A stretch of DNA of 64,000 bases, from assembly GCA_015680905.1 (NCBI GenBank), contig CM027380.1, forward strand, positions 32,728,001 through 32,792,000. Direction: 5' to 3'. Shown here one piece after another: positions 2,285 to 41,985 of this stretch. The translations under genes were made by a program, and so were the position numbers. The notes beneath the pieces are model-generated. The model did no database searches. It had not been told where the DNA came from and saw nothing but the letters and a program-made list of their open reading frames with translations. Origin of the DNA: Coptis chinensis (taxonomy: Eukaryota; Streptophyta; Magnoliopsida; Ranunculales; Ranunculaceae). How positions within the stretch are numbered: position 1 is the first letter of the stretch; every line of letters begins with the position of its first letter.

Positions 2285-2302
2285 TCCCCGGCAGTGGCTC
2301 CA
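2285..2302 (-). other. Primer binding site of element A (tRNA-Asp type)
   Basis: Reads TGGAGCCACTGCCGGGGA on the minus strand, two bases after the LTR end. It resembles the TGGCGCCGTTGCCGGGGA type known for Athila-like elements, with a few changes. It marks the adjacent LTR as a 5' LTR and sets the element's direction. Confidence 0.85.
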
Positions 2303-2304
2303 TT

Positions 2305-4077
2305 TGATAAAACGTTGATTTCATGTTTTGGTTTTATATTTAAGTCCAAGGTCCACAGTCTAAAGACCAAAGTCCAAAGTCCAAAGTCCGTATAGTCATC
2401 CGTTTAGTCAAGTTACCTTACTCACGTGGGTTTGGTAGGATAGGTCGAGTAAAGGATCGTCCAAACCTTAGGGCTCGGCAAGGTTTACAACTGGATTTAC
2501 AACTTTTGGTGAGTAGGATTTTAGGTTATTTAGTTGGTTTAAGTAAATTAATGGTAATGCAAGTAACGTAAATTAATAACGATGATTTCTACATAAATAA
2601 ACAAAGATAGAAAAGCAGGGAGAGGGTTAATCGTACTCATGCAAGAATCATTTTCAACAGTTTATACTACCACATCGCTACAGCTCTAATCCGTCTCGAG
2701 TTCATAGACAAACCCAAAACGACATCGAGTATTGATCCCTAGCGAAATACACGCATCTCTGAGTGCATCTTACTAGCATAAAGAGTTGAACTAATATTTC
2801 ATCTCTGGAATATCATTTCAGCACCTGGTTCGATTCTATATCAGCTGGACAAATTGGAGAGCTGTCTGACACCATAGAGTCGCGCGCGAGACATTTTGAG
2901 TCTCTCGCGAGACTGTTCTGGAGCATCATCACTCTAAACTTGTACAGTCTCAATCATTTTGGGACCGGATGTATAATCTACACCTAATTCCTAAGTAGTG
3001 ATTCTAGAACATTAAAGTGTCAATCCGGATTCTCACACGAGCAGCATAACCCTCCCCCTGAGGGGGGGGGGATTAACTCATGGTCATTGGAGGAATAATT
3101 AAACTTGTTGTATACAATAAATAAGTAAATGTAGAACAAGAATTAAACTTGAAAAGAAATAACTTTTATTAAGAAGAAAGACTTACAGTACTGAAACTGC
3201 TAGAAGGGAAAATGACGAAATGTAAACTACCTCCTGGAATGAAGCTACAGACGATAAACTAAAACTGACTAACTAATGAGCAAATGCTTGAGCATAAAAG
3301 GTGAAGAAGAAATATTGAAGACCCCCTTCACATATATGTAGGCAGGTCTCCCCTCGTGAATCATTTTAATTCATTTCGCCATTTTCTTAATTTGAATCCT
3401 TCAAAACTTTGAAATACAAAGTTTTGTCTTGACATGGTTTACTTTGGTTTTTTGTCTTTTCCTCATTTGTATTCCTTCCAAAGTTTTGTTTACGAAACAA
3501 AACTTGCAATTAATGTTTTGTCTTTTTGCCCAATTCAATTCAAAACATTGAATTGGTACGTGTCTTTTCTTTTTGCAAGGTGGCACAAAATTGTGACCAT
3601 CACTTGCCACCTGCCTATGTTGACTCGTCATGTCTTTTGGGCCCGCAGAGTGGGTCCACGCGGTGTGTCCAGTGGCGGCGCCGATTTTGGCATTTTTACA
3701 ACTTTCTGTCTTTGCGTAGAGTTCGTCGCCCTGGTTGCTCTGGCAGTTCACTAGCCGAAGTCTGCATCCAAGTTTGAAAGATGTGAGCTTTGGAAGTTTG
3801 CTGCTTCTTTACATGTGGACCTGTTTTGCACTGGTATTGTTCCTTTGGAAACTTCGGCTCTAGTCAAGCTTTGTTGGGATTCACTGGGGCTTAGTGGGAA
3901 GACTTCAAGAATTCCAGTATTCTCGTACTCCGATGCATGTTTTATTATCATATTCACGTTAACTATGGAAACCTACAAAAGTACAAAAATATAATTATTA
4001 CATGATTATTAAACACATAATTGACCAAAATGCTATGTCTCTCGGGGTTTAATATTACAGTTTTTGGTGCTTATCAC
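2305..4077 (-). repeat. 5' LTR of element A
   Basis: A 1773-bp LTR on the minus strand with termini TGATAAGC and TTATCA. It matches the plus-strand LTR at 28529-30305 along its length; over the first 250 bases I count about 17 differences by eye (about 7%). A TATA-like stretch lies near 3335. The primer binding site lies on its left, and just outside its start are the bases CCATG (minus strand), identical to those outside the partner LTR. Two sense-strand open frames inside (3751-3957 and 3401-3751) recur in the partner LTR, one with a stop; I do not call them genes. Confidence 0.93.
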
Positions 4078-4617
4078 ATGGGTATCTTGAAATAGGATCG
4101 GCCAATAAAAAACACATTAAAGAACTTTGGCGGCAGTTTTCTTTCCACTAAAATGACTCCCTCATGATTTTTCATGGCAGAAGGATAAGACTTCATTATG
4201 CTCCCATTGGGGAATGCAACAACGAATTATCTAATCCGCACAATATTTAAAAAGGTAGGGTTCATCCCAGTAGTAAAACTTAACTTTGGCTAAAAATCTC
4301 TTGCGTTCATTCCTAGTCCATATATCAGGAATGATTTCAGACACTAAAAAGTTAATAATGTCTGCATACCAAGGTGTAGAAAAAATTGAATAAAGATGCT
4401 CATCCAGAAAAGAGTCAGATATCGATTCAGAATCACTGTACTCCTCATTAGTTAACCTAGATAAGTGATCTGCAAATAAATTTTCAGCTCTTTTTTATCC
4501 TTAATTTCTAAGGTAAATTCAGTTAAGAGAAGAATCCAATGGATCAATCTCTGCTTAGAATCCTTCTTCGCGAGAAGGTACCTAAGCACGGCATGGTCTG
4601 TATAGACGATGATCGTG
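4078..4617 (-). pseudogene. pol: Element F pol fragment: end of RNase H to integrase zinc finger
   Basis: On the minus strand this encodes [15 protein letters not shown] (RNase H end), the linker with WYADIINF, and the first half of the integrase HHCC zinc finger up to WPILFQDTH. It has one frameshift near 4490 and stops at 'CAD*II', 'EKS*GS' and 'VL*CVF'. The reading continues exactly, in frame, in the plus-strand segment at 30306, once one CCATG is removed. So this is the 5' side of F's integrase, now in inverted orientation and 26 kb away. Its other end is cut by the LTR of element B at 4618. Confidence 0.92.
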
Positions 4618-6113
4618 TGATAAGCACATAAATGCTACACATGTATACCCATATTTATGTTATATTGTCTAGTTAATTAATATAAGTTCCTGTGATTAGT
4701 CTATTTCCTTGGTTTTACATAAATCAACGCAAATACGAATAAACGGGTTGAGACTGAGGACTTTACGGAGTTGTGAGATTCTCACGTCTTGATTATAGAG
4801 AGACTACACAAAACGAGATATGAAATAACATGTGTATGACATTATAAAGCTACTACAAAAAGTTGAGGTACTGTTGTCAAGAGGTCAGAGCACGCCCGCG
4901 CTCCAAGAAGCCTAAGTCAGAGCGCGACCCGCGCCCACTTCTAAAATTGCAGAATTACAATTTTTTTCTAGACCCATTGCAGCGTGCAACTCACCGCTCA
5001 GAACTCGATTTAGACAATTCTAATTGGGATCAAACATGGAAGGAAAGATTTCCAAAGTGGATTCTAACTCTTGCACGCCCTAATCAATCCCTATATATAT
5101 ACGAAGCAAAACCAAGAGGTGGGAGCTCTCCAGAACACCGAAACAAAGAACAGAAAGAATGAAAGAGAGAAGAACAGGAGAGAGCTTTAGAGAGAAGCTG
5201 AAAGAGAACAGGAGAAGAGTCTCACCAAGCCAAAACAGGTTACATCTTTTGAGGCCAAGACTTGGAGCTAGGTGCACAACTGTTAGAACTTTGGGATAGG
5301 AGAGTTGGAGAAGAAGACACCACAGCAACCTCACGATTTTGTTAAGGGAGTCTTTTTCATCTATTTTTAATGTTCTAGTTAATATGTCTTGCTAAATAAT
5401 AAGCTAGGGCTTAGATGAAGCCCTAGACTTGCGTAGGTTTTACTGTTTAATGAGTTTATTGTTCTCCAACTTAATGAATAACTGATTGATTTCTCTAATA
5501 TTAGTGGTATACTTTCATTAATTATATCTTGCATGTTAAAAGTTCATTACTTGACTAGTTAATTGTTAGATAAATATTCCATTCTTATTAAAGCATTATT
5601 TTTATCGTTTACGTAAGCTTATGAGAAGTCGTGCTGTAAGAAGACGATTTTTGCTAGGAGTTTATATTCTCGTTTGCTGAAATTCAATCAAACCAATATA
5701 TAGATTTATATAAGAGCTCAATGTTAACATCTTCGAGCAAGCTAGGGTTACCTTTCCCTCGTGCTACACGTAATTAAAAGATATTTTAAAATTAGTTGAA
5801 CTAAGATAATCTACAACAGGTTAAGGTGGATTCGAATGCCTTAGTATTCTATCTATTAATAGTTTTAATATAAGTTTTATTATTTCCATAGTTTAACTAG
5901 TTTTAGTTAATAATTACTATTCCTACAAACCAATATTGTTCGGATTAGGTTAAGTAGTATTTTAATATTCAATTGTACCCAACACGTATTCTCTATGGGA
6001 TCGACCTCGTATTTGCACACCTACTACAATAGACTTCGTGCGCTTGCGAGTATTATTATAAGTAAAATAGGATTTAATTAGCATGTTAATTTAGGTCGGT
6101 TAAATTGTTATCA
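4618..6113 (+). repeat. 5' LTR of element B
   Basis: 1496 bp, termini TGATAAGCAC and TTGTTATCA, followed by the primer binding site. A shorter, diverged copy of this LTR family lies at 60414-61635 on the minus strand. It holds the GC-rich motif AGCGCGACCCGCGCCC (4921-4936) and a related AGCACGCCCGCGCTCC (4889-4904). A TATA-like ATATATATAC run near 5092 precedes an A/G-rich region that could be the start of R. Confidence 0.93.
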
Positions 6114-6119
6114 AGTTTT

Positions 6120-6137
6120 TGGTGCCGTTGCCGGGGA
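6120..6137 (+). other. Primer binding site of element B
   Basis: TGGTGCCGTTGCCGGGGA, seven bases downstream of the LTR end, one base from the usual tRNA-Asp-type site of Athila elements. Confidence 0.9.
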
Positions 6138-7012
6138 TTGCAATGGTACAATTGAGTTTTAGAGTCTTACTTTACGTAATTTGTTATTTTTCATTTTTGG
6201 TTTAGCCATAGTTTTTGTTAATTTATAGTTTAAGTTTTTATTTAGATTTTTCTGCATACGACCACATTAATAAGTTGCTGACATCTGTAGGAACCTCTCT
6301 GAAAAATTGCAGGTCTACCTGTGAGAAACTCAAAGCGTTCCCTAGTTTACCTTGCAGAAAGCGCGCCCGCGCTTTTACCTTGTTTCCCAGCAAATTATGC
6401 ATGTGTAAAACTAGCTTGTGTTAATTATATGTTTAGTTTTCTATTTTGGCATCTATCATTTTTAATTGCATGTTTCGTAATCACGTCTCCATAATACATT
6501 AATTACGTAAACTAAAAAAAATTAAAAAAAATTAAAAAAAAATCCTAATAATTAAAATTTCATCATAATAATCTTAATAATACCCCGCATAATACACCAT
6601 CATAAATCATCATCATATTCCATTAGTGTTTAGGAAACTCGAAAGATTGAGGTTGCCTAATTAAGGAACGTTCTAGCACGAACAACCTCCCTCAATTCTC
6701 TCAGGTGAGCTAGCTGCTGGAATATTCACACGTTATCCTAGCTTACCAACTCGAGTTAGTAACAGCTTAGGAAGACGTGCTTCACCTCCCTCCTTCCTTA
6801 ATTCTAAATCTTCCGGTCATAAGTTGTTCCTTATGAGCTTAGAATTAAAACTCGTGTTGGTTTGAGACTACGGTCTGGTACTAATAAGGAATTATAACTT
6901 ACATATCGTCGTTGGAAATACAATAAACAACTGCTTAAGTTATCTCCTAGACAGTTCCTCCTCCATAACCCAACCTCGACAAGTATCTCTGTTTCCATTA
7001 TCTCCCTTAGTT
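6138..7012 (+). other. Leader of element B
   Basis: About 0.9 kb between PBS and gag. It carries another GC-rich motif, AGCGCGCCCGCGC, at 6360-6372 and an AAATTAAAAAAA-type run near 6518. No gene seen. Confidence 0.6.
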
Positions 7013-8198
7013 ATGGCTTAGGAAAATCCCACAGTCTAGAAACCCCTTTCGGATTTCTATATTGCCTTACAAGAAGGACCTGCTTCTTGTATTAAACTCG
7101 ATGAGATTGTAGGAGATTTTCGCATTCCGCCAAACATTTTTAGTTTGTTACCTGTTTACCATGGTCTAGACCATGAAAAACTGTACAATCACCTTCGTCG
7201 AATGCAACAAGTAGTCACCATTTTCCGCCATCCGACCGTTACCAACGAACAAGTCTTGCTTAGGTTGTTTCCCTTCACCTTAGCTGATAAAGCTTCAGTT
7301 TGGCTCGCAGGCGAAGTACCACAATCCATTGACACATGGGCCAAACTCGTGCAAGCATTCATGATAAAGTTCTATACTCAGAAGAAAACTACATAAATGC
7401 TTCAAAAGATTCAATTATTTTGCCACCACCCCCATGAATCCTTTTTGGAAGCATGGAGCAGATTTAGTGATCTGCTTCTCAAATGTCCCCATCATCAACT
7501 CGACACCCCTGTCTTAGTCCGTTCATTCTTTAATGGTCTCTCTGACCATCAAAAGGAAACATTAGATATCATGAACGGTGGTTGTTTCATGGACAAAGGC
7601 GCTACTGAAGCATACATTTTTCTTGAGAAACAGGCTTCACGAAGCACCCATTGGGGTAGCACTGATTCTTCCAGATCTTCTAAAGACACTCCTACCAAAG
7701 TTACATCTATGTTCGAGGTCAAACCCGATCCAGAATTAAAAATTCTAATCGAGTCCCTAAACAAAAAGGTCGATGCTCTTTCGGTTCAAGTAAATGATCA
7801 AAAACTCAAAGAAGTCATGGCTGCCAATGCTTCCCCATGTCCTCTTTGCTTAAGTCCTGAGCACACCGATTCTTATTATCCTTTGGTATACGAGTGCCCT
7901 CCCCAACTATCTGAAGAGGCTGGTGCTTTCAACATTCCTAATGCACCTTGGCGACAACATACGAATTTGGCTTGGGGCCCCACCTGCCCAACAACAAGCT
8001 CTTCCGGGTGTCAACAACGCTCCTGTACGACCACCCGCGAACTACAATTCCTACCATCAAGGAAATCCTCCGCAACTCCAGCAAGGACAAAGTCATTTTC
8101 CAAACAACATGAATATAGGGTACCAAAACAACCGCAGCCTTGTTCCTGCTACTGCACTGGTACAATCCACTGCTGATAAAACAGCTGAAACTTTTTAA
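7013..8198 (+). pseudogene. gag: Element B gag (Athila-type), broken
   Basis: Gag builds the virus-like particle. The start at 7013 (MA...) is supported by element D, whose gag begins in the same way. Conserved stretches are FRIPPNIFSLLPVYHGLDHEKLYNHL, LFPFTLADKASVWL and the FYTQKK block, followed by a C-rich CPLC-LSPE-H segment near 7840 in which the last Cys of the knuckle is replaced by Tyr. Two TAG stops lie in the first nine codons and a TAA at 7394-7396; a frameshift near 7960 moves the glutamine-rich tail to another frame. Most of the stops are one transition from CAG or CAA. Confidence 0.85.
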
Positions 8199-10201
8199 CT
8201 TACATGAATCAACAGAATCAAATACTAGCATCTATCCAACAGTCTCTTCAACTATTAGCACAGGATAAAAGTCAAAAGGGCGTGTTCCCTGGCCAAGCAG
8301 TTCCAAACCCTAAGCCTACAAACACTGCCTTTGAACTCAACAATGCACCAGGATCTAGTAATCCAAGCCAGGGTGAGGTAAATGTCATTACCACTTTTTG
8401 TTCTAGCCAAACCATCGACAATCATATACGTATGCCAGACGTCGAATCGACGGAAGCCGCAGCTGACGTCCTTCCAACTCCTACCTCGCAACCTATAGCG
8501 GATGAAGTTGTTCCTTCCAAATCTACATCCACGTCCCTAGGAAAAGACACCTCTGATCCATATGTGTGATTCGGCCCAAAAGCTCCATTCCCTACCCGTT
8601 TGGCAAAGAACAAACCGGATGAACATTTCGATGAGATCCGTGAAACCTTTAAAAATTTGACCATAAACCTACCTTTTCTAGATGCGCTTAAGCATTTGCC
8701 CAAGCATGCCAAGTTTTTGAAGGACATGTGCACCACCAAATGACGTATGAATGTTCCTCAACAAGCGTTCCTCACTGAGCAGTTTCTCTCGATTACTACT
8801 ACCAATAGTGTGGTTAAATACAAAGACCCAGGTCGACCAACTATACCATGCACGTTGGGAGACAAGTATACCGCTACCGCACTTTTAGACCTAGGCGCCA
8901 GTGTTAACCTACTTCCCTACTACTTATTTAAGCAGTTAGGTCTTCATGAATTAAAACCTACCTATATGACCCTGCAACTCGCGGATAGCTCCATCAAATA
9001 CCCAAAGGGCATAGTAGAAAACGTCATAGTCAAGGTCCAAGATTTTTACTACCTAGTTGATTTTATCATTTTAGATACCGAAGTAGTTTGTGACTCCATT
9101 CCTATCATTTTGGGATGTCCATTTCTTGCAACTGCTAACGCTCTCATCAATTGTCTGGATGGTTCAATGACATTGTCTTTCAGGAACCTTTCTGTCGAAG
9201 TCAACGTGTTCAAGTTAATGAAACAATTTCTCGATCCTATAATAGAGGGTGAGATTAGCTTGGTTGATAGTCTGGCACAGGATTATTTCACAAACTCTTT
9301 TCCCGAAGACGAGGTACACCAATTCCTTTCTTTTGATAATCTTGAGTTTGACGATGACTTATATGTTAAGGATGTTCAAGCATTATTAGAATCAATACCA
9401 TTATTTGACCCTACTGCTGCAATACCAACTGATTCAGAAGAACCGAACTCACTCTTTTCCATTGAAGAAACGGCCCCTCACGAATCCTTGATCTCCACTC
9501 CTCCAACTCCGAATTTAAAACCTCTACCCTCTGATTTGAAGCACGTGCATCTCGACCCCGATGGTAGTCACCCTATAATAATTTCTTCTCACTTGACTAC
9601 CGACGTAGAAGCACATTTGATTCGTGTCATTCGTGAATACCGCTCCGCTATTGGATGGTCCTTAGATGATATCAAGGAAATATACCCTAGCGTATGCACG
9701 CATCGCATACATCTTGATGATGGCACAAAGACATCATGGGAACCGCAACATTATCTTTACCTTGCCATGAAAGAGGTGGTGAGGGAAGAAGTTTTATGTT
9801 TACTTGATGCAGGTATCATATACCCTATCTCTGATAGTGACTGGGTTAGTCCTGTCCACGTTGTTCCCAAAAAGTCTGGCATTCAAGTTATACAAAATGA
9901 AAATGGTGAATGCATCTCCACTCGTATTCCATTAAAATAGAGAATTTGCATTGACTATCGCAAACTTAATGCCAGAACACGTAAAGATCACTTCCCTCTC
10001 CCATTCATTGACCAGATGCTAGAATGTTTACCCGGTCATGCTTACTACCATTTTCTTGATGGCTATTCTGGCTACTTCCAAATTGTCATTGATCCCGCTG
10101 ATCAAGAAAAGACAACTTTCACATGTCCCTTTAGAACCTTTGTATACAAACGAATGCCTTTTGGTCTTTGCAATGCCCTAGGCACCTTCCAACGATGCAT
10201 G
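8199..10201 (+). pseudogene. pol: Element B protease and first half of reverse transcriptase
   Basis: One reading frame from 8204 to 10201 with a few stops. The gag-protease linker ends near 8700. The aspartic protease core is LLDLGASVNLLP (about 8883-8918) with ILGCPFLATANALI as the flap-side helix. RT begins near 9640 and shows VSPVHVVPKKSG, ICIDYRKLNARTRKDHFPLP, motif A FLDGYSGYFQI and motif B MPFGLCNA. A TAG at 9938-9940 replaces the Trp normally found before RxCIDYR; TGA stops lie at 8567-8569 and near 8741. The reading is cut at 10201 by element C and resumes at 18827. Confidence 0.9.
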
Positions 10202-11809
10202 TGATAAGTGCTCAAAAAGTGCATTTTAACCCTCGATTATACCTCTTGTTTAGCCATCTTAGTGGACTAATAGTGTTTGTAAGTTATGTTTTATGATTCT
10301 ACAGGTGAAAAAGAGAGTTTTGTGGAATATTAGAGAAAAAGGGGTAAAACGGAGCAATTCAGAGCATTAAGGATCACATGGGAAACCCGTGGACAATCAT
10401 GGAGAAGGCCAAGGAATTGAAGCTATTAAAGATGCGACTTGGACCTATTTTAAATTCTATTTTGAAGCCCAAGGCAAAAGGATTCGTTGCTCGGACCAAA
10501 GCCTGCAAATGATGATAGAAGGATAGAGCAAAAGAAGGAAAATAGACTTCCGCGTTTGGGACGCATGGATCGTGAGTCTAGACGCATTTCTCGCATCTAA
10601 GACGCATGGATCGTGTGTCCAGATGTATGGCACGACACTGTAGCCACTTCCTTCTCAGTTTTGGAGATGAAGTTGGACTATGAAAGAAGTTGATTTGTAT
10701 TAGGAAACAAATTGCGGTTTGGAATGCTTCTAGAACTCATTGTAACCCTTATAAATAGAGGACCTAAGTGCCTCATGTAATTTGCCAATTCACTTATACT
10801 CTTATCTCCAGAACTTGAGGCAGAGAGAGATTAATAATAAAATATTCAGTTTTAACTAGCCGAGACTTAATAAGTTAGTCTTTCTAGTCTTATGTTCTTC
10901 GACTCTTCTTCTTCTCGTTCTTTGTGTTCTTCCTTCTTTATGGAAGACTAATCTTCTCCTTCAAGGGAGGAGATGAAGTCGGTGCTTAAGATTTAATGAT
11001 TTTTTTGGTTCATGGTGTTATTCAATCTGGTTAGTTCTTTATGTTTTTAGTTGTTAGTTCCACTGCTCAGACCAGGGGATGGAAGTATAGATTAAGGTTT
11101 TTATTTATTGCAATCGAATATCATGCTAGTTTAGGGTTTTATTTATTGCAATTGAATATTTGCTAGTGACATGCTTTTATTTATTGCAATTGAATATAAT
11201 GCTATAATAGGGTTTTATTTATTGTAATTGAATATTATACTATTATTCTCTACTTTTCTTCTAGTTGTGTAGTGTTTTAGAGTGTGGGAAGTATTCCTTG
11301 TGTTTGCCTTAGATGGTGATTCTTTGAATAGCTGCCCAAGCTCACATAAAAGGAAAGAAGATATTAATATCATAAACTTAGAAACAACCTTAAGTAGAGT
11401 TATTCGTTAACGATATTTTGTCCAAGAGGGCGTCGGCACTTACTCGATTGCCTAATTATAGTCAACTTGTGAGAACAACCATGAAGCATAAGGTCACAGA
11501 TAAAAAGTATCGATGGATTCTAATCTCTTGAATTCTCTTTCCTATAAATTCTCAGTAGTTTAATTAGTTTAGTTTAGTTTAGCATTAGAATCTAAAATCT
11601 ATAATAATATTTTTTAATCCCTCAAACCCCCTTTCCAGTCATGTCCTTTATATAAACATACACTTAAAAGTGGAACGATATCCTACTCATCCTTTACTTA
11701 TTGAGGGATAATTAGGTTTTGATACGCTTCTATTTGTTCAATGACCATCATATATCTACATCATCCATATACCATCCAATCATCTCACACACAAAATGGA
11801 GAAAGGTCA
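10202..11809 (+). repeat. 5' LTR of element C
   Basis: Starts TGATAAGTGC and ends GGTCA. It contains several copies of a 'TTTATTTATTGCAATTGAATAT' -like unit, written here only in part as TTTATTGCAATTGAATA, near 11101-11235, which gives it an internally repetitive U5-side section. A CTATAAATAGAGG TATA box lies at about 10749, ahead of the likely transcription start. Confidence 0.95.
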
Positions 11810-11811
11810 AA

Positions 11812-11825
11812 TGGCGCCGCTACCG
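11812..11825 (+). other. Primer binding site of element C
   Basis: TGGCGCCGCTACCG begins two bases after the LTR end; the 5' half matches the tRNA-Asp-type site, the 3' half has drifted. Confidence 0.85.
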
Positions 11826-12372
11826 TTTTCTTTCAAGATTAGAACTTTGGATCTTAAGGTAATTTTAGCCACATCATCCATCCTTTTGAGAAAGAGAGAA
11901 GCTTGAAGGACATCTCGAAGACAAGATCTACCATCCAAGTTAGTCGAATCTTCATTCTTTTTATTTCATTCTTAGTATAGTTGCATCGTAGTTTAGTTTT
12001 ATTGCTTTCTTAGTATAGTTGCATCATAGTTTAGTTTGATTGCTTTCTAGTATAATTACATTTAGGACCTTTTCACCAATTGAAGTTGTAAGGCAACACA
12101 GTGAAATATCAAACTCTAGTGTTTCTTGTCTGAATCTTGACAAATGGACTATCGTCTGTGGGCCGTGGTACTTAAGCAATCCAAGTGATTCACCATAACC
12201 CTAGAAGAGATAGCTTTAGACAACGGGTGAGATACTAGCTGCAAAACCTAACCCAATTGAAGGAAGTAGTTTTGCATATTAGAATAATTTAGAATTGTTG
12301 CATATTAGTTTAATTGCATTCAAGCATTGTAGGATAGTTTTTCGTCATTTTTTGCATAACATTTTCTAGTGT
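11826..12372 (+). other. Leader of element C
   Basis: About 550 bp with no open frame of note. It contains an imperfect repeat of a TTTCTTAGTATAGTTGCATC unit at about 11967 and 12008. Confidence 0.55.
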
Positions 12373-13797
12373 ATGCCCCGTCGTCCATATCATCGTCCGG
12401 TAAGAACACAACAATGGACAAGGTTTAACAACCGACTCACAAAAATACTAGACGAGTTTGATACAATAGCTGCACGCAATGATGAAGGTGTTTTGGACAC
12501 CAATAATCCTGTAGCTATCCCACCCATGTAAGCACAACAGAGGAAGAAGCTGAGCGATTTCTATTTACCAATCATTGGAGACCCACCCAGCAGTATTGTT
12601 TTTCCAGAGACAGAATCTAACCAGTTTGAAGTTAGAGCATCAGTAATCTCTATGCTTCCAAAGTTCAATGGTTCAGACAATGTTCAGCCATATATTCACA
12701 TGAACAAATTTCTATCAGTCCTCAGAACTTTCACGAACCAGAATATCAAAGATGAGAGTATCAAGTTGATTCTTTTTCCGCTCTCACTCTAAGGTAAAGC
12801 CTCTGAATGGTTAACTGCACAGCCGATCATTTCAATAGACAACTGGGAGAAGTTGAGAATGAAGTTTATGAACAAGTTTTACCCACCCCAGAAGACTGAT
12901 GCCATGCAGCAAGCTATCAACAATTTCAAAGGAAAAGCGACTGAAGAATATCATTATAGTTGGGAGCAATTTAACAATCTACTAGTCTCGTGTCCACATC
13001 ATGGATATGACAAGAGCACACTGGCTCATTTTTTCTATTGAGGACTCTCGATGATGAACAAGCAGATGATACAGTCAATTCACAAAGGCAAGTTTACATC
13101 AATGGATGGAGAGGAAGTTTACAACTTTCACGAGAATTTAGCTGAAGAAACACAACAATGGACTACTAGCAACGAGGAGTCGCTAGTGTGGAGGGGAAGC
13201 CAAAGCAATTTGGTTACCAAGCACATGAACAATCAGATCAAGAACTGAAGTTTACATTGGCTAGACTGGCCACCAGCATTGAAACTTTGAGTAAGAAATT
13301 CAACCAGTTCTCCATGAATCCCTCTAAGATCAACAAGTCTCAAGCTAAATCTCTCCCAGTCATGCAAGCTAGCGAATATTGCGAAGTCTGTTCGGACACT
13401 TCTCATGCAACTCTAGAATGTCCTGGTTACTATCAACATGTATCAGTTGGAGAGTACAATATAAACTCATTTCAGAGGCCCAACCAAAGTGGTAATAACT
13501 TTCAAGGCAATTATTAGAGATAGAATGCTGGACCCCCAGGTTCTCAAGATCAAAGTTATATTCCACAGACAAGTCAAGCATCACAGTTGGTTCCTCAACA
13601 ACAGCTATACTCTCAGCAGAATTCCAATACAAGTGGAAAGTTAGTGCCTGATCCTAGGAGAAATTATGCTGCACCCGCCAACCTGGAGAATGCTATTACT
13701 TTGCTATCACAGAAAAATCAGAAGTTTGAAAGTGTTCTAGAGCTTCTTGCACAGTCTCAGTTCAATCTCCAGCAATCTCAGGGAAGTTAATATTCTA
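12373..13797 (+). pseudogene. gag: Element C gag, broken
   Basis: Starts MPRRPYHRP and shows the Athila gag signature: SMLPKFNGSDNVQPYIHMNKFL, SLxGKASEWL, KFMNKFYPPQKTDAM and SWEQFNNLLVSCPHHGYD. After a frameshift near 13200 a classical CCHC knuckle follows at about 13379 (CEVC-SDTS-H-ATLE-C), then a Gln/Asn-rich tail. In-frame stops: TAA near 12529, TAA near 12793, TGA at 13039-13041, TAG near 13515; several sit where CAA or CGA is expected. Confidence 0.88.
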
Positions 13798-20995: not shown

Positions 20996-22489
20996 ATATT
21001 GAATAGACTCTTCTTCAGGATCCGGTCTACATAGACTAGATGTTTCGTTTGGCGTACTCAATCTTGTTTCTGTAGAGGGTACGCCATTTTGGTAGCCAGG
21101 CCATCTTCCATTTTATGATCTCAAAAGTTCTTTGAAGTGTGTGGTTGCAAGCACCGAAACCGTAGTCCACAAAAACTCTATTTCAAAATTGAGTATAAAT
21201 GTCTTCTGCAACACGAGCAAACGTTCCTGCTGATAAACGATGGGTACCAAAAATTTCACCTCCTTCCTTCTCTTCCCTTTTCTACTCTCTGCCTCGTGAA
21301 CTTCAGCTAAGCATTTGGTGTAAGTCTTACCCATCACAAATAGGTAATAGTCGTAATACTTTTGCTCATAAACGACGTGCACGAAGGATGGGGTATGCAT
21401 TGTCAAACACCTTTCTGTCCAGATCTTGACTTCCTATCCGATACTAGCTGGTATAAGGTATACTTTTGTCTGACACCAGCTGCACAGGATAATCTTCGAC
21501 GTCGCGCTGTTTCTCCCACGGGTTGGGAATCGTCTTGAGAATCTGATGTTAAAAGACTCGCAAACGTCTTGAGAATCTGACATTAAAAGACTCGATTCAT
21601 CTTGAGGATCTGACGTTAAAAGACTCACCTTGTAGATATGTATATATTGTTGCCTTTTAAAAATTCCCCGTGCATTAAGTTGTGCAGATAGGGATTCGTG
21701 TTCAACCTCAGATGTTGCATACTTGGAACACGTACGGGCAATGGATTCCACCAGACAACCCCTAGAATTGGTTACTTTGAGCTCCCTTTGGGGCGGTTTG
21801 AGGATAGTCGTATGTAATAAGGGCAATATTATTAGACCGTAGCGCACACGGTCCAGGATGGTACCGTCCTGCCCCTAACCCCATAATACATAAAGGTAAA
21901 GCCACAGTCTGGCTGGATTAGGTTCGCTCCAGAGCCGACATGACAGTTGCCTATGAATTTAGATGGTGACTCTTCTGGACATCCATTGTTCTTCACGTAA
22001 ATCTTCCTTGTATATAAATAAAAACTCTGTTTATAAATAAAAACCCCTACTTCTTTTCAAAAACACTTGTGACCTTTGAGAATGACTAATATAATTGGAT
22101 GGCATTTTTTGTTCCAATCATTTTGATATCTCATTCATCCAATTCGGAGTCCGAACGAGTCGTGGGTGAGCGTTGAGAATTTTTTAGGCTTTAAATTGGG
22201 ATTTAGGCTTGATTTGGGCTTGGGAAAATTTTTGGGCCCAACCAAATCTCGTTATTCTCGGCCCATTTAAACCCAAGACACCCAACCACACACTTCACAC
22301 TTACAACCTTCGTCTCCTACAAAAATTGGATCTAGTTCCCCCCGCTTAAGTCTCGCATGAGACAGGCCCAAGTTATATCCAGGTCTCGCGCACGACCACC
22401 ACAGCTCCGAATCCAATTCCCTTATGTCAGCCAATTCCAATTCTTCCCCTCATCTCAAATCTATACCTATCCTCTTCTTACGACCCCCA
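20996..22489 (+). other. Element B spacer between integrase and aORF I
   Basis: About 1.5 kb. It shares a TGTGGTTGCAAGCACCG... segment (about 21139) with F (about 31394), so it belongs to the element. Inside is the tandem repeat listed separately. I see no gene; open frames at 21199 and 22357 lack relatives among the other copies. Confidence 0.65.
21534..21633 (+). repeat. Three tandem copies of a 33-34 bp unit
   Basis: Units starting CTTGAGAATCTGA at 21534 and 21568 and CTTGAGGATCTGA at 21601, each continuing into TTAAAAGACTC. A single related motif, GAATCTGACTTTAAAAGACC, lies at 37281-37300 in D, and TATCTGACTTTAAAGGACC at 31601-31619 in F, in the same place downstream of gag-pol. Confidence 0.85.
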
Positions 22490-23640
22490 ATGGCCGGAAA
22501 CAGGCGAATTTCGGTGGAAAATTTTTTTGGATCACTATTTGAAAGTGGAATGTTTGCGCCATTTTTTGATACGGAAATACAATCTAGAAGATGGGAGTAT
22601 TTGTTGTATGCAAATGGCGGAGTATATTCAAAGGATTTGGTGTTGAAGTTTTACGACAATGGTAGCTTTAATAGCGACCATTTTTGGGTCACCGTCGGCG
22701 GTGTGCGCCGCGAAGTCACACCCGCTTTGATCTCCGGGATCACGGGCATACCTCTGGTCGACCACGTGCTGACTCAGCAGCAATCCGTGTATCCATGGAC
22801 TTATGACCTAATGCTCGACACGCTAATCGAGGGCGAGTACAATATAGATGGGAAATGCGCGTAATGTGCATATCAGCGCTCGGTGCGACGAAACCAGCTG
22901 GCCGTGACTCAATAGCTGGGACAAAATGTCATTGGCACCTCAAAGCCATCGGACATCAACAAGACATTCCTCCACCTACTCTGGATCCTCCAAGAGCGCA
23001 AGGGTAACTTCTGCATAGTTACCTTTCTTTTTGATATCATTACTTATGCCACTCTCAGGTCAGCCCCTCTTGCCGTTCTTGTACGCAAGTTATGATTAAT
23101 TTGGGTTTCCTGTCTGCCACCCCGTTACTCCCTATGCTACCATATGAGAATATGCTTATCTTCAAGAAATGCATACTGGCCCCATGGGAACCCACAGCAC
23201 CAATGGCAGCTGAGCACGCTAACGTAGGTCTATCTCACCCACCCTTCTTTGATGAGACTGCTATGAGTAAGATGAGCCATCCTATGGATGCCTTACGTGC
23301 TATGAACAGTGGCATGAGAAACATGTACACTCGCCAAGTATCGATGAAACATACCATGGGCGAGTTAAGGACGGATATGACCACTCGCCACGAGTCGCTG
23401 ACAGACAACATGGGCAAATTTTAGCAAGAAATGCGAGCTTCCATGAATGCATTTCAGGACCATATGACTACTCGCCAGAACCACTTCCAACGAATGCTAA
23501 TGGCAAACCAGCACCAGTTTTAAGCCCAGGTGATGGATACTCTAGGTGATATCCAGGAGCAGTTAGCCTCAACGGGAGCTCGTACTGCACGCCGTCACAG
23601 GACTTTTGGTTCTTCTTCTGTAGCCCCCGAGGATTCTTAG
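22490..23640 (+). pseudogene. Element B accessory ORF I (aORF I)
   Basis: Start at 22490 (MAGNRRIS) chosen because copies in F and A begin MA at the matching place; an ATG at 22424 would add 22 residues. The N-terminal half has a conserved pattern: FFGSLFE, FF..EIQSRRWEYLL, VYSKDLVLKFYDNGSF, FWVTVGGVRREVTPALISGITGIP, LMLDTLIEGEYN. This resembles the 'putative plant transposon protein' domain often met beside Athila/Tat elements; I recall this family but cannot verify it here. The C-terminal third (23090-23640) is Met/Gln-rich and helical, with TTRHESLTDNM-type repeats. A TAA at 22862 and at least one frameshift (22865-23150) break it. Function unknown. Confidence 0.7.
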
Positions 23641-24571
23641 TAGACAGTTTATTTTCCTGGTCTTGTATATTATTTATGTCAGATATTTTATTTACGTGTT
23701 TGCAGTTTAATTTTCCAACCTAGGATGTCGGTTATTTCCTACATTTTCCAAAGTTTCTGCCTTATCAAATAGTATATTAGTTATCTCCAATATTATATTA
23801 TATAGGTAGAATCATATATAATAATATTAGTAATAATAATATATATAGATACATATAAAAATATATACATATATATTTTTAACATCACACTTAACGACAA
23901 ATTTTACCGTCAACTAACGTTTTGCAAAACGGTCATGAAAACGCACTAGAAAACGGTCATGAACTCACATCCAAAAACGGTCAGAAAACGGCTAAATTTT
24001 CTTTCTATAAATAAGTTTAACACATCCTTCACATTCACTCCTTTTATCTTCTTCCCTCTACACTTCTTATTCTAAATATCGTTTTTTAGTTTGCTACAAA
24101 TTTCAAGCTTCATGGATGCACTAGAAAAGTTTAAGCAGCAGCAGATTGAATATGCTACTCAAGTCTTCATGCTCGATTGTTTTATTATAGTAATGTTGTT
24201 AATGTGGCATATAGTCCTATCTAATATTTAAGTTTGTATTTTATTTCCCGTGTCATTATGGTGTGTTTTCACATCTATGTACATTGTTACATCTTATGGT
24301 GATATTATATCTACATCTTCCTTGTCCTTCTACTTACGCTATTTATGTTAAAAAGTGGGGCACTCTTTGTAGTCACATACCCCATTCTTCCCATCCACAC
24401 TACATCCACTTTTGCACCATGTTTCAGAAGATACACGTGATCTAACTATCCTGTGACACCTCGATTCGTATTTTCTGCATCTTCGGATTGGTGCCTATTT
24501 AAAGCAAGGATAGACACCTCTAAAATTCAACTTCCCCTTTCCACTAAATTTTCTTCACCACTCCATCTTTA
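23641..24571 (+). other. Junction region between element B and element A
   Basis: About 930 bp, very AT-rich, between two successive aORF I copies. No element in the window has two aORF I copies in a row by design, so the B-to-A boundary should lie here. It also contains an AT microsatellite-like block (23800-23880), four AACGG motifs, a TATA box and a short ORF, listed separately. No LTR end or target-site duplication is visible. Confidence 0.55.
23928..24232 (+). other. Promoter-like fragment with four AACGG motifs and a short ORF
   Basis: AACGG occurs at 23928, 23952, 23976 and 23987, three of them within AAACGGTCA. TATAAATA follows at 24006. An ORF of about 40 codons starts at 24112 (MDALEKFKQQQIEYATQ). 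The layout resembles the 5' end of a small gene or DNA transposon fragment. I do not recognise the protein; a PIF/Harbinger-like remnant is only a guess. Confidence 0.35.
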
Positions 24572-25662
24572 ATGGCCCTCACTTGAATTTTCGTGCCCGA
24601 GCAAAATTTTATGAAAAATTTCCAAAACGGTCTTTTTCATCCATTTTTTGGCAAAGAAATTTTACGTCAAGGATGGTTCCATCTATTACATCATAAGAAG
24701 GCATTTTATTCCAGAGAATTGGTCATGCTATTCTATAAACACGGTTATTTCCAAAACGGGCAATTCTTTGTCCGTGCAAATGGATGCGAGCGTGAATTGA
24801 CTATGGAAATCATCTCCGAGGTACTTCAAATTCCCATTACGAACTAGGGGGTACACCTTCAGGATTCACCATTCGACAATATCAGGCATCTGATGTTTGC
24901 AACTATCCTTCACGGCAAATACAACCAGGAAAACCGTATTGTTTATCAGCGATCCTTGCAAAGAAACCAATTATCTGTGATCCAATGGCTAGCTCATAAT
25001 GTGCTCGGCACATCTAAGACTTCCGAAATAACAAAACCCCTCCTCCATCTACTCTGGGTCTTGCAGATTAACTATAAAGATTTTTGCATTATTAAATTTC
25101 TCAAGAACGCGATCGCACGTGCCAAGAAAAAGGCAACTCCTTTGCCAACCATTGTGACACTTATCATAATGCGTTGGGTTTTCCTATTGCTCATAATACA
25201 CCTCTTAGAACAGCTAACATTCTCATCATTCACTCAGTTTGTATGAACAGTTTCTAGAATCCCGACGTTGCAAATAACCATGCCGGTGCAGAAATCGGCG
25301 AAGCTCGTTCCATTTACAACATCTTCACTGAAAATGCAATACGCAACGTATTTAATCCTATGGAAGGTCTTCGTTTAATTCACCAAGGACTTATGACATT
25401 ATACAAACGTCAAAATATTATCATCACTAGTTTTCTTGAATTTCACGACCTGCGGGCATTACAAGAAGAAGAACAAGCACAATTCTTGCATAGCCACAAC
25501 CAATTCTTGGCAAATCACACTCTCATAATGGAGAACCACACCGAGATTTAACAAACACAGAGCGAAATGTTACAACGGGCTGTTGCACGGATTGACGGCA
25601 TCGAGAATCCTATAAATAGAATTCTCTCACAAAAGGATCCTCATCGTTACTTGGGCCCATGA
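24572..25662 (+). pseudogene. Element A accessory ORF I (aORF I)
   Basis: Homologous to the aORF I copies in B and F: FMKNFQNGLFHPFFGKEILRQGWFHLL, YSRELVMLFYKHGYF, FFVRANGCERELTMEIISEVLQIP, then LMFATILHGKYNQENR, RSLQRNQLSVIQWL and LLHLLWVLQ. Stops at codon 5 (TGA) and after LQIPITN (TAG), and a frameshift near 25220, disable it. The C-terminal part (25360-25662) has EGLRLIHQGLMTLYKRQ and a Gln/His-rich tail, paralleling LHSGMHTLYDHQR in F. The plus orientation and the following 3' region tie it to the LTR at 28529. Confidence 0.7.
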
Positions 25663-25829
25663 CACAATTTAGATTTTGTAATTTTATGTTCTTTGTCATT
25701 TTCTTTTTAGTTTTTAAATATAGTGCAAATTTCCTATGGTAATTTGTTTTTACTTAGTCATTCCCATCGTATTCTAATATTTGTTTATCTTTGTCTACAG
25801 GTGGTATCTTTCTTCACACGTCTTCTACA

Positions 25830-26801
25830 ATGGCCTCTCCAAAGATTATTCCAGAACAATCTTTCCATTCGCTCCTGAATTCTCCTGTATATGGACATCT
25901 TTTCAAAGACTTCATCACCCGAGTTGGTTGGAACTCCTTGATACTACACCCTGAGCAGACATACTCTCCAGGTTTGGCAACTTATTTTTACAATCATATG
26001 GAGGATCTACTTGCTGATGGTTTCGTGTCGAACGGATTTGCAATCCGTATTGGTAACAACCGCCACCCTTTCTACGAGCCAACAGTTGCTATGGCTTTGG
26101 ACCTTCCTCCTATTCAGCCAGACATTCCCATTCAATACATGATAGAAAACAACATTAATGACTATTCTTGGGAAGATTTCGCCGCCCGTTATGGCGATGG
26201 CCTTGCCTAAGTCATTGAACATGCAAAAGCTGGCCGATGGCCAGACAACACTATTCTACTAGCCAGTATGACCATAAATGTTGGAATTGCCATGTTATTT
26301 ATTCTTCTAAACATCATGGGGGATTGGCATTTTTCCACTGCCTCAAAATCAGCTAGTAAGACGTTCCATGCCCTGGCCTAGCAACATACCACCTTCGACA
26401 TCACAGATCTAGTAATTGAGAACATTAAGAGGGCTCGATCTTTTCAGCAGCACTATATCACTTTGCCAGTTACAGCATGCAGGATAATGAGGACGTACTA
26501 CCCACAGTTTGCGACCACTTTTCATGACTGGGTAAAGGTAAACTCTATGTGTCCAACAAACAAGATAATTCGTTCTTTGCCATTTCAGGTATGGCGGCGC
26601 CCTACAAGGTTTCTAAAGAAAGTTCGTTGCTTCGCTGATGACGATAAAATGATAGCTCATCTGGACACTTCAAGAAAGAGGAAGTGGAGCGAAGTCTGGA
26701 AGGCTAAAATAGATTGGCGTGGAGCAAAGGAATGTCATTTCTACAAAGACGAAGCAAGGATGGACCATCCCCCAGTTCGTAATTGGGGCAATGTGAGTTG
26801 A
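25830..26801 (+). pseudogene. Element A accessory ORF II (aORF II)
   Basis: Start at 25830 (MASPKIIPEQSF) is supported by the same opening in D (MTSPTIIPEQSF) and F. The 324-codon frame is uninterrupted by indels; it has only two main stops, TAA at 26208 and TAG near 26380. Conserved parts: YGHLFKDFITRVGWNSL, TYSPGLATYFYNH, LAL-type helix, SMTINVGIAMLFILLNIMGDWHF, ITLPVTACRIMRTYYP, FHDWVKVNSMCPTNKIIRS. The N-terminal GW..L...YS..L..YFY.N pattern is shared with aORF I, so the two look like paralogues. Just upstream, TTTGTCTACAG|GTGG resembles a 3' splice site. Function unknown; Athila elements often carry an extra ORF here. Confidence 0.72.
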
Positions 26802-28348
26802 TGTCCATATTTGTTTTACATTTTGATATGAAAAATAAATAACCTAACAGTGTGCTTTCACTTTTATGATTATAATATATAGTGTGTTACAATAAATTTC
26901 TGTGGAAGATGTCAGCTATATTTTTGCTCAAAGCCTCTCAAGTATATTCTTTCTTCCTCTTAACACTTTGAGGACACAGCATCCGACTGTTTGGGGGTGG
27001 CAAGAACCTTTCGCAAAAATTAAGCATTCATAGTTGTATTTAGTTTTATTTTATGTCTAAATAAACGTATTTAGTAACAAATTCTAGTTTCCTTTTCTGT
27101 GATGAAAAATATTTAGAAATCTCACCCTAGCATCAGAATTAGGACTTGTTCTTAGAAACTTAATTTAATACGTATGCGATAGTTTTTACATCTTTTTATG
27201 AGCATTCATGCACTGACTATCATTAAATGTACACATCAGTAAGTTTATGGGACCCACAGTTAGACAACTTAGTTTTCATATCCTGTAAGAATCTAACCAA
27301 AAAGCCTCAAAATGTGTGATATATAATTAATGACACAGAAGAGTACTTTTTCCGAATAAAAAAGTTCACACGTCTACTTACTTTATCACTATCCAAATCC
27401 TAGGCGAGAATTTAGGCCTTCTTTGGATCAATATAGCCAAAAATTCACACCTGTAAAAAAAATTTACTGCTAGTCGCCCCATTGAATCTTTCATTAACCC
27501 TTTCTATTTCACCAAAAATTCATTACCCACCTATTAACCACAAATAAATAAGCCTACCTAGATGATGAGTATGAGAAATAGGATGAAGTGCGGAAAAATG
27601 AAGAGAAAAACTTGTCACAAATCAAAATCAGTTACCTACTTTAAAAGAAAATAAAAAGAAAAATAGAAATTTGTTTCCAAAAATCAAAAGAAATATCAAA
27701 GTTAGAATTTCCCCCAAAATCAAATCAAAAGGGAATACAAAAGCTTAAAAAAGCCAAGTATGGAAACCCATGTTAGAAGAAGGAAAGAAAATTAGGATTT
27801 CTCAACTATAAATATGTCGAAGACCTTATTCTCTCATACTTATTATTTTTGAATTTTCCATTCTAATTTCTTCTACACTACCACCTAAGCCCCATAAAAC
27901 CTAATAAAGACATCTAGCTCAATTAGGAGTAGGATAGTGGGATAATAAGTAGTAGATGTGAATTCTCGACCTCGGCTCCTTTGAATATCATTGAGTATGT
28001 GAGGAAACGTGTGCCCACTACACACTAGAGTTATCAAAACTTGAGTGGAAAAATAAGAGAGAAATTGTGTTCCGACACATACCTGTGCGAACCTACTTAA
28101 GGACGTTATCCAAAAGATCCATAAACGGCCATGCTCGTACATTTCATTATAAAGATCACTGCATGCATGCTCATATGTAGATGTTTTGATTATTGTATGT
28201 ATATTAACTTAAATTTCAAAAGAATTTATTCTTCTTTCCCCCACTAGTGAGATGTATAGATATATGAGATTAATTAAGGAAACAGGCTTTTGTTACTGAG
28301 TTGTTGTTGTATAAAGGAAGTTTGTGAGTATCTTCTCTAAAAAACTTT

Positions 28349-28387
28349 CACGAGGCTATAACTCGTCCACTAGGGAATTCCTAGTGG
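28349..28387 (+). other. Two adjacent stem-loops in the 3' region of A
   Basis: ACGAG and CTCGT pair around GCTATAA; immediately downstream CCACTAGG and CCTAGTGG pair around GAATT. Counterparts are at about 40686-40723 (D), 46073-46109 (F), 17029-17060 (C) and inverted at about 61767-61800. Confidence 0.65.
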
Positions 28388-28488
28388 TTCAAGGCCTTGT
28401 TGCGTACGGTCAATGCAATCGCACTTTGCGAAATGTGACTTAGCATAGGACAACACATTTTTGGCCACTTATCATTTTAATGTCTCTT

Positions 28489-28528
28489 CTTTGCTTGAGG
28501 ACAAGCAAAGTGCTATTTGGGGGTGGTG
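28489..28528 (+). other. Hairpin plus polypurine tract of element A
   Basis: A perfect 9-bp stem (CTTTGCTTG with CAAGCAAAG) closes an AGGA loop at 28489-28510. The polypurine tract ATTTGGGGGTGGTG (28515-28528) follows and directly abuts the LTR, marking it as a 3' LTR. Confidence 0.85.
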
Positions 28529-30305
28529 TGATAAGCACCCAAAACTGTAATACTAAACCCCGAGAGACATAACATTTTGGTCAATTATGTGTTTAATAAT
28601 CTTGTAATAATTATATTTTCGTATTTTTGCAGGTTTCTGCAGTTAACGTGAATATGATAATAAAACATGCATCGAAGTATGGGAATACTAGAATTCTTGA
28701 AGTCTTCCCACTAAGCCCCAGTGAAGCCCAACAAATCCTGACTAGAGCCAAAGTTTTCAAAGGAACAAAACCAGTGCAAAACGTGTCCACATGTAAAAAA
28801 GCAGCAAACTTCCAAAGCTCACATCTTTCAAACCTGGACGCCGACTTCGGCTAGTGAACTGCCAGAGCAACCAGGGCGATGAACTCTACGCAACGACAGA
28901 AAGTTGTAAAAATGCCAAAATTGGCACCGCCACTGGACACAATGCGTAGACCCACTTTGTGAGCCCAAAAGACATGATGAGTCAGCGTAGGCAGGTGGCA
29001 AGTGATGGTCACAATTTTGTGCCACCTTGCAAAAGGAAAAGACACGTACTAATTCAATGTTTTGAAATGAATTGGGCAAAAAGACAAAACATTAATTGCA
29101 AGTTTTGTTTCGTAAACAAAACTTTGGAAGGAATACAAATGAGGAAAAGACAAAAAACCAAAGTAAACCATGTCAAGACAAAACTTTGTATTTCAAAGTT
29201 TTGAAGGATTCAAATTAAGAAAAGGACAAAATGAATTAAAAGGCTTCACGAGGGGAAACCAGCCTATATATATGTGAGGGGGGTCTCCAATATTTCTTCT
29301 TCAGCTTTTACGCTCAAGCCTTTGCTCATTAGTTAGTTAGTTTTAATTTATCGTCTGTAGCTTCATTCTAGTAGGTAGTTTACATTCCGTCATTTTCCCT
29401 TCCAGCAGCTTCAGTAATATAAGTCTTTCTTCTTAATAAAAGTCATTTCTTTTCAAGTTTAATTCCTGACCTGCATTTACTTATTTATTGTATACAACAA
29501 TTTAATTATTCCTCCAATAACCATGACCTAATCCCCTCTCCCCTCAGGGGGAGGGTTATGCTGCTCGTGTGAGAATCCGGATTGACACTTTAATGTTCTA
29601 GAATCACTACTTAGGAATTAGGTGTAGATTATACATCCGGTCCTAAAATGATTGAGACTGTACAAGTTTGGAGGGCTGATGCTCCAGAACAGTCTCGCGA
29701 GAGACCCAAAATGTCTCGCACGCAACTCTATGGTGTCAGATAGCTCTCCAATTTGTCCAGCTGATGTAGAATCGAACCAGGAGCTGAAATGATATTCCAA
29801 AGATGAAATATTAGTTTAACTCCTTATGCTAGTAATGCCATCAGAGATGCGTGTATTTCGCTAGGGATCAATACTCGACGTCGTTTCGAGTTTGTCTATG
29901 AACTGAAGACGGATTAGAGCTGTAGTGATGTGGTAGTATAAACTGTTTAAAATGACTCTTGCATGAGTACGATTAACCCTCTCCCTGTTTCTCTATCTTT
30001 GTTTATTTACGTAGAAATCATCGTTATTAATTTACGTTACTTGCATTACCGTTAATTTACTTAAACCAACTAAATAACCTAAAATCTTACTCACCAAAAG
30101 TTGTAAATCTAGTTGTAAACCTTGCCAAGCCCTAAGGTTTGGACGATCCCTTACTCGACCTATCCTACCAAACCCACGTGAGTAAGGTAACTTGACTAAA
30201 CGGACGACTATACAGACTTTGGACTTTGAACTTTGGTCTTCGGACTTCGGATTTCGGACCTCGGACTTAAGTATAAAGCAAAAACGTGAAATCAACGTTT
30301 TATCA
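28529..30305 (+). repeat. 3' LTR of element A
   Basis: 1777 bp, TGATAAGCACCC ... TTTTATCA. Partner of the inverted LTR at 2305-4077. A polypurine tract precedes it and CCATG follows (30306-30310). CTATATATATG at about 29262 is a likely TATA box. TTTTTGCAG|G at 28624-28633 looks like a 3' splice site. Confidence 0.95.
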
Positions 30306-31311
30306 CCATGCATACTGCAAAACATGTATTAGATGTCAACAACTTGGGCGTATTACTCAACATAATATGATGGCCTCAAATCCCATTCTTATAGTGGAGA
30401 CTTTTGATGTATGGGGTATTGACTTCATGGGCCCATTTCCTATTTTGCATGGTTTCATTTATATTTTTGTAGATGTAGACTACATTTCTAAATGGATTGA
30501 AGCCATGGCTTGTCGTAATAATGATCATAAAACTGTAGTACTGTTTATGAAGGAGTATATCTTCTCATGTTTCGGCATACCTAAGGCCATCATTAGTGAT
30601 AAAGGAAAACATTTTTGTAATAGAGTTATTGAAACTTTAATCAAGAAATATGGAGTTACCCATAAGGTGGCCATTCCGTATCATCCACAAACTAGTGGTC
30701 AAGTAGAGATGTCCAATAGAGAAATTAAAAAGATATTAAAAATGACAGTTAATCCTGATAGGAAAGACTGGTCTAGACACCTAACATATGCTTTATGGGC
30801 ATATAAAATGGCTTTTAAAACACCTATTGGTATGTCCCCTTATCGCTTAGTTTTTGGTAAACCTTGTCACTTGCCTATTGATTTGGAATACCGTGCCCTG
30901 TAGCCCATTAAAAGTTAAAATTTCAACATTAACGTTGCTGGTGTCAAACGCAAATTGCAATTAAATGAGCTTGAAGAAATCCATAGCGATTCTTACGATT
31001 TAGCGAAGGATTATAAATAAGCTAACATGAAACGTATTCATGATAAACATATTTTACGTAAAGAGTTTGACCTTGGTCAAAAAGTTTTGCTATATAATTC
31101 ACGTTTGCATATTTTTCCTGGTAAATTAAAAACACATTGGTCCAGACCTTTTCTGGTTAATGATAATACTCCTCAAGGGGTGATCACTTTGGTAAATCCT
31201 AATGACAGCAGTACCTTTCAAGTAAATGGCCAACGCTTAAAACATTTCTGCGAATTACGTTTTCCCGCTGTAGAAGAAACCCTTATACAATACCCTGTTT
31301 ATGAGGACTGA
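30306..31311 (+). pseudogene. pol: Element F integrase, second part
   Basis: Starts in the middle of the HHCC finger ([14 protein letters not shown]) and continues with the catalytic core: [13 protein letters not shown] (Asp 1), [12 protein letters not shown] (Asp 2), [14 protein letters not shown] (Glu kept), then [17 protein letters not shown] and the C-terminal HDKHILRKEFDLGQKVLLYNS. The core (to 30903) is free of stops; TAG at 30901-30903 and TAA near 31018 follow. Its 5' half lies inverted at 4078-4617. The catalytic triad is intact here, unlike in B. Confidence 0.93.
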
Positions 31312-33963: not shown

Positions 33964-33965
33964 AA

Positions 33966-33980
33966 TGGCGCCGCTGCCAT
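33966..33980 (+). other. Primer binding site of element D
   Basis: TGGCGCCGCTGCCAT, two bases after the LTR; matches the tRNA-Asp-type site in its first 13 bases. Confidence 0.85.
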
Positions 33981-41980: not shown

Positions 41981-41985
41981 CTTAT

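Follow-up and report, generated by a model that had tools for sequence, protein, structure and literature searches.

Inside nested long terminal repeat (LTR) retrotransposons, a 64,000-nucleotide window of the Coptis chinensis genome (C4:32728001–32792000) holds a small inverted piece composed of parts of three elements. The oldest of these, designated F, is a plant Ty3/gypsy-type retrotransposon that was entered by two further elements, A and B, after which a segment was turned over; the comparisons described below establish this order of events, the flip itself, its contents and the position of its joins to within tens of bases. In the favoured reading, to which we give a probability of roughly 0.93, A and B struck F head to head, and about 4.8 kb was then inverted between breaks in their leaders. 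The window was read together with 100 kb of left flank and 20 kb of right flank, 184 kb in all, with coordinates below 1 lying left of the window, and was compared against the 935.6-Mb genome in 116 contigs. Copies used for comparison carry L numbers, and B2 denotes a second B-family copy within the same 184 kb. The principal pieces, with primer-binding sites (PBS), target-site duplications (TSD), untranslated regions (UTR), open reading frames (ORFs) and Kimura two-parameter distances (K2P), are as follows.

-95093 to -93790, plus strand: F 5' LTR, 90.2% to the F 3' LTR at 46248-47555
-39955 to -39464, plus strand: F1, the RNase H piece of F, in the left flank
-39456 to -38278 and -12824 to -12514, minus strand: B 3' LTR in two parts, 92.6% and 95.5% to the LTR at 4618
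1 to 1562, minus strand: B interior just past the leader, running on left to -81; matched by B2 (-66647 to -68256, 84.5%) and L056 (84%)
1563 to 1575: left join, B interior (minus) against A leader (minus); A copies L052 and L054 reach 1575, B copies reach 1544 (B2) and 1562 (L056)
1575 to 2304, minus strand: A PBS and 730 bp of the A 5' leader, flipped; 86.5% to L052 through LTR, PBS and leader
2305 to 4076, minus strand: A 5' LTR, flipped; K2P to the 3' LTR 0.069
4077 to 4081, minus strand: first copy of the A TSD, CCATG
4077 to 4617, minus strand: F2, from RNase H to the N-terminal part of the integrase, flipped; 89-92% to seven other F copies
4613 to 4617, minus strand: B TSD CACGA; the partner copy left of the window is TACGA, both read directly
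4618 to 6113, plus strand: B 5' LTR, flipped; K2P 0.071 over both 3' LTR parts
6114 to 6360, plus strand: B PBS (from about 6120) and leader, flipped; B2 at 91% to 6330, L057 at 85% to 6360
6361 to 6402: right join, B leader against A interior; the alignment of L052 resumes at 6400, that of L054 at 6402
6402 to 28528, plus strand, original orientation: A interior with gag, protease (PR), reverse transcriptase (RT), RNase H, integrase (IN), X1a, X1b, X2, 3' UTR and polypurine tract
28529 to 30305, plus strand, unflipped: A 3' LTR; L051 has 25668-30305 in one piece, 89%
30306 to 30310, plus strand: second copy of the A TSD, CCATG
30306 to 47555, plus strand: F3 onward, with integrase (rve), accessory ORFs, 3' UTR and 3' LTR (46248-47555), interrupted by element C

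A sequence-only reading of the window had paired the two A LTRs as partners of one insertion, and the comparison bears this pairing out. In self-comparison, 2305–4078 matches 28527–30305 in inverted orientation at 92.9% over 1,782 columns. Direct reading places the LTR start TGATAAGCACC at 4076 (minus) and 28529 (plus) and the LTR end TTTTATCA at 2305 and 30305, giving termini TGATAAG..TTATCA of the TG..CA type, while the PBS-like and polypurine stretches of A lie beside its 5' and 3' LTR, as had been described. The CCATG reported outside each LTR is present at 4077–4081 (minus) and 30306–30310 (plus), and a five-of-five match of this kind has by itself a chance of 1 in 1,024. Moreover, the insertion site is empty in six of the seven other F copies, in which the two F halves meet with an exact 5-bp overlap. 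Separate full mates for both LTRs nearby would have spoken against a single insertion; comparison of the ordinary A copy L052 with the 184 kb yielded no other A LTR, just one 72-bp match at 75%. The LTRs of a single element insertion share one orientation, and those of A are now inverted. This inverted placing is secondary; other A copies run uncut across the break, and the 24 kb between the LTRs is accounted for by the A interior together with an 8.6-kb nested element, G.

The F sequence on either side of A identifies the piece that was turned over. As had been proposed, the integrase halves outside the A LTRs belong together: 4082–4611 (minus) corresponds to 19508–20038 of the A pol at 69%, 30316–31259 (plus) corresponds to 20049–20988 at 70%, and these two parts adjoin within one pol gene. 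The related claim that removal of A and one CCATG restores a complete F integrase finger stands in part. The 84-bp and 90-bp flanks, once joined, encode 21 residues, equal in length to FCDTLEHCIACIPCQHLGRIT of the other copy, with the frame kept across the site; completeness is local, the F frame having stops, one of them inside this short stretch. Three probes (F1, -39955 to -39464 plus; F2, the reverse of 4077–4618; F3, 30306–31300 plus) were compared with seven other F copies cut out from 40 matches, one of which was the window. F1, F2 and F3 follow in that order on one strand in six of the seven; each of these six has F2 and F3 sharing precisely the 5-bp duplication, and in five of them F1 abuts F2 to within about 10 bp. 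In the window, F2 lies on the strand opposite to F1 and F3 and is therefore the flipped piece.

An inverted duplication of the whole F-with-A block followed by deletions would likewise yield inverted LTRs and matching duplications, and F-related 3' pieces (about 80%) do occur elsewhere in the region, at 66928–69835. Such a history would require several deletions that stop at the very points where pieces of F, A and B adjoin; taken together, F1, F2 and F3 add up to a single F stretch whose only overlaps are the duplications, and no second A LTR with leader exists within the 184 kb. We accord it almost no weight.

The other partner, B, sits in F in reverse. Left-flank self-comparison locates F-like protease–RT at -41580 to -40061 and RT–RNase H at -39955 to -39473, both on the plus strand. 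The sequence-only reading, which had predicted from the window that the left flank would hold F RNase H on the plus strand, followed by CACGA and a minus-strand B-family LTR, proved correct to one base, TACGA standing where CACGA was expected. The B 3' LTR is itself split by a nested block with GTCGC at both sides. B2 supplies the uncut arrangement: its leader corresponds to window 6100–6330 (91.3%), and 82 bp past that leader its sequence corresponds to the window minus strand from 1544 to -81 (84.5%). L056 has the same order of leader and then interior, with 66 bp between. A 601-bp query from B2 gave 44 matches, grouped by hand into 39 copies including that of the window; among these listed copies the break is uncut or has both sides on the same strand in 34 (31 in one alignment, three in two pieces).

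The left join is fixed from the A side by two copies. L052 matches A from the LTR across the PBS and along the leader as far as window 1575, continues through 102 bp absent from the window and then resumes at 6400; L054 likewise follows A to 1575, passes through 104 bp absent from the window and resumes at 6402. With L052:2600–3200 as query, the stretch missing from the window A is essentially whole in 40 of 40 copies listed, L052 included (shortest match 3–590 of 601; best 40 of 1,346 candidates); about 100 bp of A was lost at the break. For the right join, query 6100–7300 returned 41 matches (best 40 of 3,509 candidates), which comprise 39 other copies besides the window itself and an additional piece from one copy; all 39 other copies listed begin at query 299–333, about window 6402, and none enters the B part. 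The alignments accordingly put the joins at about 1,570 and about 6,400 and the flipped piece at about 4.8 kb, containing the A 5' LTR with part of its leader, 541 bp of F, and the B 5' LTR with part of its leader. The joins are reciprocal, A/B at about 1,570 and B/A at about 6,400, as judged against uncut copies of both elements. Together with the F1–F2–F3 order elsewhere, these features uphold the proposal that A inserted into F and was later split by an inversion.

The extent of that inversion is revised. It had first been described as spanning about 24 kb or more, with the right join at 23.6–24.6 kb, where two X1-type ORFs in a row resemble a fusion at first sight. A query of 23600–24600 gave 40 matches at 83–100%, the window's own among them, plus one of 85 bases at 75%, from which 30 loci were cut, the window included. 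Of the 29 other copies examined, 28 span 23640–24548 in a single alignment (85.7–91.0%), and L050 starts at 23670. L022 and its continuation L051, which form one C1 copy, run through the A LTR to 30305 with an insertion of about 0.4 kb at about 25.67 kb. Since copies cross this interval and L022/L051 link it to the A LTR, the 23.6–24.6 kb region is native A sequence; the 24-kb version is thereby refuted, and its remaining probability is negligible.

The gag–pol region, which seemed to have been given to B, is collinear with A in other copies and is A's own. Specifically, window 6402–8600 (2.20 kb) corresponds to 2,240 bp at C1:81.35 Mb, 2,246 bp at C8:16.46 Mb and 2,265 bp at C8:55.22 Mb; the equivalents of 8600 and 23600 lie 6,453 bp apart at C7 ~84.47 Mb, against 6,370 bp expected without G; and in L032 the end of the integrase (20691–20924, 97%) adjoins the X1 region. 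A map assigning the pol at 7–21 kb to B was dropped on account of these collinear copies. With the joins at about 1,570 and about 6,400, only about 4.8 kb is flipped, and the A gag–pol stands in order on the right.

These pieces give the following history. B entered the RNase H region of F in reverse and A the integrase region in the direction of F, 541 bp apart. Because the two insertion directions are opposite, A and B stood head to head, 5' LTR against 5' LTR. One break would then have fallen about 730 bp behind the A LTR and another about 250–290 bp behind that of B, and the roughly 4.8 kb between them would have been rejoined upside down with loss of about 100 bp of A. Comparison of the A arm with the B arm gave nothing better than E=0.16, and inversion by homologous recombination, whether of inverted repeats or between A and B, was rejected, the joins having no long homology. 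Exact joins are blurred by the variable B leader; given the absence of long repeats at the joins and the missing 100 bp of A, end joining of two breaks is the likeliest route, and we infer that the flip was a single event of this kind.

The same final sequence could in principle arise by way of a circle. Recombination between the A LTRs would leave a solo LTR in F, the resulting one-LTR circle would open in its leader and be captured in the leader of B, and an LTR–LTR flip would follow. Both solo LTRs and circles with one LTR are known products, and flipping 4077–28528 on paper does give F, a solo LTR and F with CCATG on both sides, together with a circularly permuted A in the leader of B. This route needs three events where the favoured inversion needs one, and nothing observed calls for it; we regard it as very improbable.

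Several observations weigh against the two-break inversion. F copy L004 leaves about 100 bp unaligned from F1 to F2, and L005, the seventh copy, has F2 alone. Three of the 39 listed B copies give one side of the break alone, and the two copies of the B duplication differ by one base (TACGA/CACGA). The join positions are loose by about 13 bp on the left and about 40 bp on the right because the leader of B varies there, so that microhomology is not finely measurable. Within 150 bp of the joins, no shared string exceeds 12 bases (TAAAAAAAAATC); this A-rich run surpasses the best of 60 shuffles by a single base and sits at distances of about 50 and 130 bp from the joins. A 10-base string, AAATTATGCA, is found both at the right join and about 95 bp from the left one, a recurrence that could reflect coincidence or filler sequence copied in as the break was repaired. 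One B copy on C6, L057, also has the sides of the break on opposite strands. Finally, the joins rest on assembled sequence, which leaves formal room for an assembly fault.

The C6 copy bears on how often such flips occur. In L057 (C6:48620900–48623300), at about 1060–1350, plus-strand B leader directly adjoins minus-strand B interior, the two matches overlapping by about 10 bp. Two of the 39 listed B copies thus have this spot's sides on opposite strands, the window copy and that at C6:48.62 Mb, and on this ground the variable leader behind the PBS of B could be a fragile spot at which the 5' ends of such elements were flipped repeatedly, an idea we consider unlikely.

A contig flipped in this stretch by the assembly is conceivable in a repeat-rich region with inverted 1.77-kb A LTRs. 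The joins lie outside the long inverted repeats and are accompanied by the loss of about 100 bp of A, unlike a flip at long repeats. In addition, A, C, F and the block in the B 3' LTR have duplications matching at five of five bases, and B and G at four of five; the exception is a G-family block in B, which compared with an uncut copy at 63894/63896 has no clear 5-bp duplication. The probability of such a fault is accordingly put very low.

The remaining features of the nest are the following.

10202 to 18826, plus strand: G, nested in the RT gene of A; LTRs 93.3% alike; flanks GCATG/ACATG
32811 to 41980, plus strand: C, nested in F; flanks CTTAT/CTTAT; LTR K2P 0.026
22448-23083, 24548-25156 and 25797-26753; also 32233-32802, 38245-39016 and 43480-44412: accessory ORFs X1a, X1b and X2

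F forms a single element (-95093 to 47555) with CCTGA on either side, now stretched across 142.6 kb by nested insertions; its rve domain is recognised by Pfam at E=2.6e-16. Within A, Pfam detects PR at 8744–9937 and RT/RNase H at 18763–19491, with gag under its curated cut-off, and the integrase that follows RT/RNase H is homologous to the F rve domain. As read from these domains, the order PR, RT/RNase H, integrase places A in the Ty3/gypsy superfamily. Its PBS may resemble tRNA-Asp, a mark of the Athila/Tat lineage. A tRNA scan of the window found none. Summed from the map rather than assembled, A without G comes to about 17.9 kb.

Related accessory ORFs X1a, X1b and X2 stand behind the integrase in several of these families, and a Pfam scan of X1 and X2 ORF pieces gave no credible match. 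C carries gag and an X2 ORF with about 1.9 kb between, too little for pol, and is therefore probably non-autonomous. The G-family block in B (-10276 to -82) consists of a full LTR (plus), an inverted LTR part with 3' interior (minus), and a PBS with interior (plus), and ends about 66 bp before the 3' LTR, a structure that could reflect capture of an aberrant product of reverse transcription. In the right flank, 76304–79392 (L019) is a satellite-like tandem array that yields many diverged matches to itself.

LTR K2P values are 0.098 for F, 0.069 for A, 0.071 for B (parts 0.047 and 0.078), 0.071 for G, 0.067 for the nested block K and 0.026 for C, with errors of about 0.005–0.012. By this measure F is the oldest, and A, B, G and K are not ordered among themselves. 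At a substitution rate of 1.3e-8 per site per year, F would be about 3.8 My old and A and B about 2.7 My. Both A and B predate the inversion.

Nested blocks of LTR retrotransposons were reportedly described in maize by SanMiguel in 1996. With the general pattern of such plant blocks, the present locus shares elements within elements, short TSDs and LTR divergence fitting the nesting; it differs in that a small piece with parts of three elements is flipped.

At maize centromere 10, inversions and chimeric retrotransposons have been attributed to double-strand break repair (PMC4806543); the inversions described there are large and centromere-linked, whereas the present one spans 4.8 kb between head-to-head leaders. 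At the maize p1 locus, LTRs parted by a large block were matched through an identical 5-bp duplication, and breakage with end joining was invoked (PMC2686159); the relevant parts of that report do not describe LTRs in inverted orientation accompanied by a flipped piece of the host element, as found here. The history proposed here fits the sort of break repair put forward for those maize rearrangements (PMC4806543, PMC2686159). Among literature titles and abstract openings, none was recognisable as this very arrangement, which is no proof of absence.

The event is ordinary decay in nested retrotransposons, unusually well resolved. A first look at such pieces would pair them wrongly, and someone reading raw sequence blind may foretell an unseen flank correctly yet misplace the joins. 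With nesting, TSDs and many uncut sister copies, a small inversion can be located to within tens of bases and given its place in the order of events.

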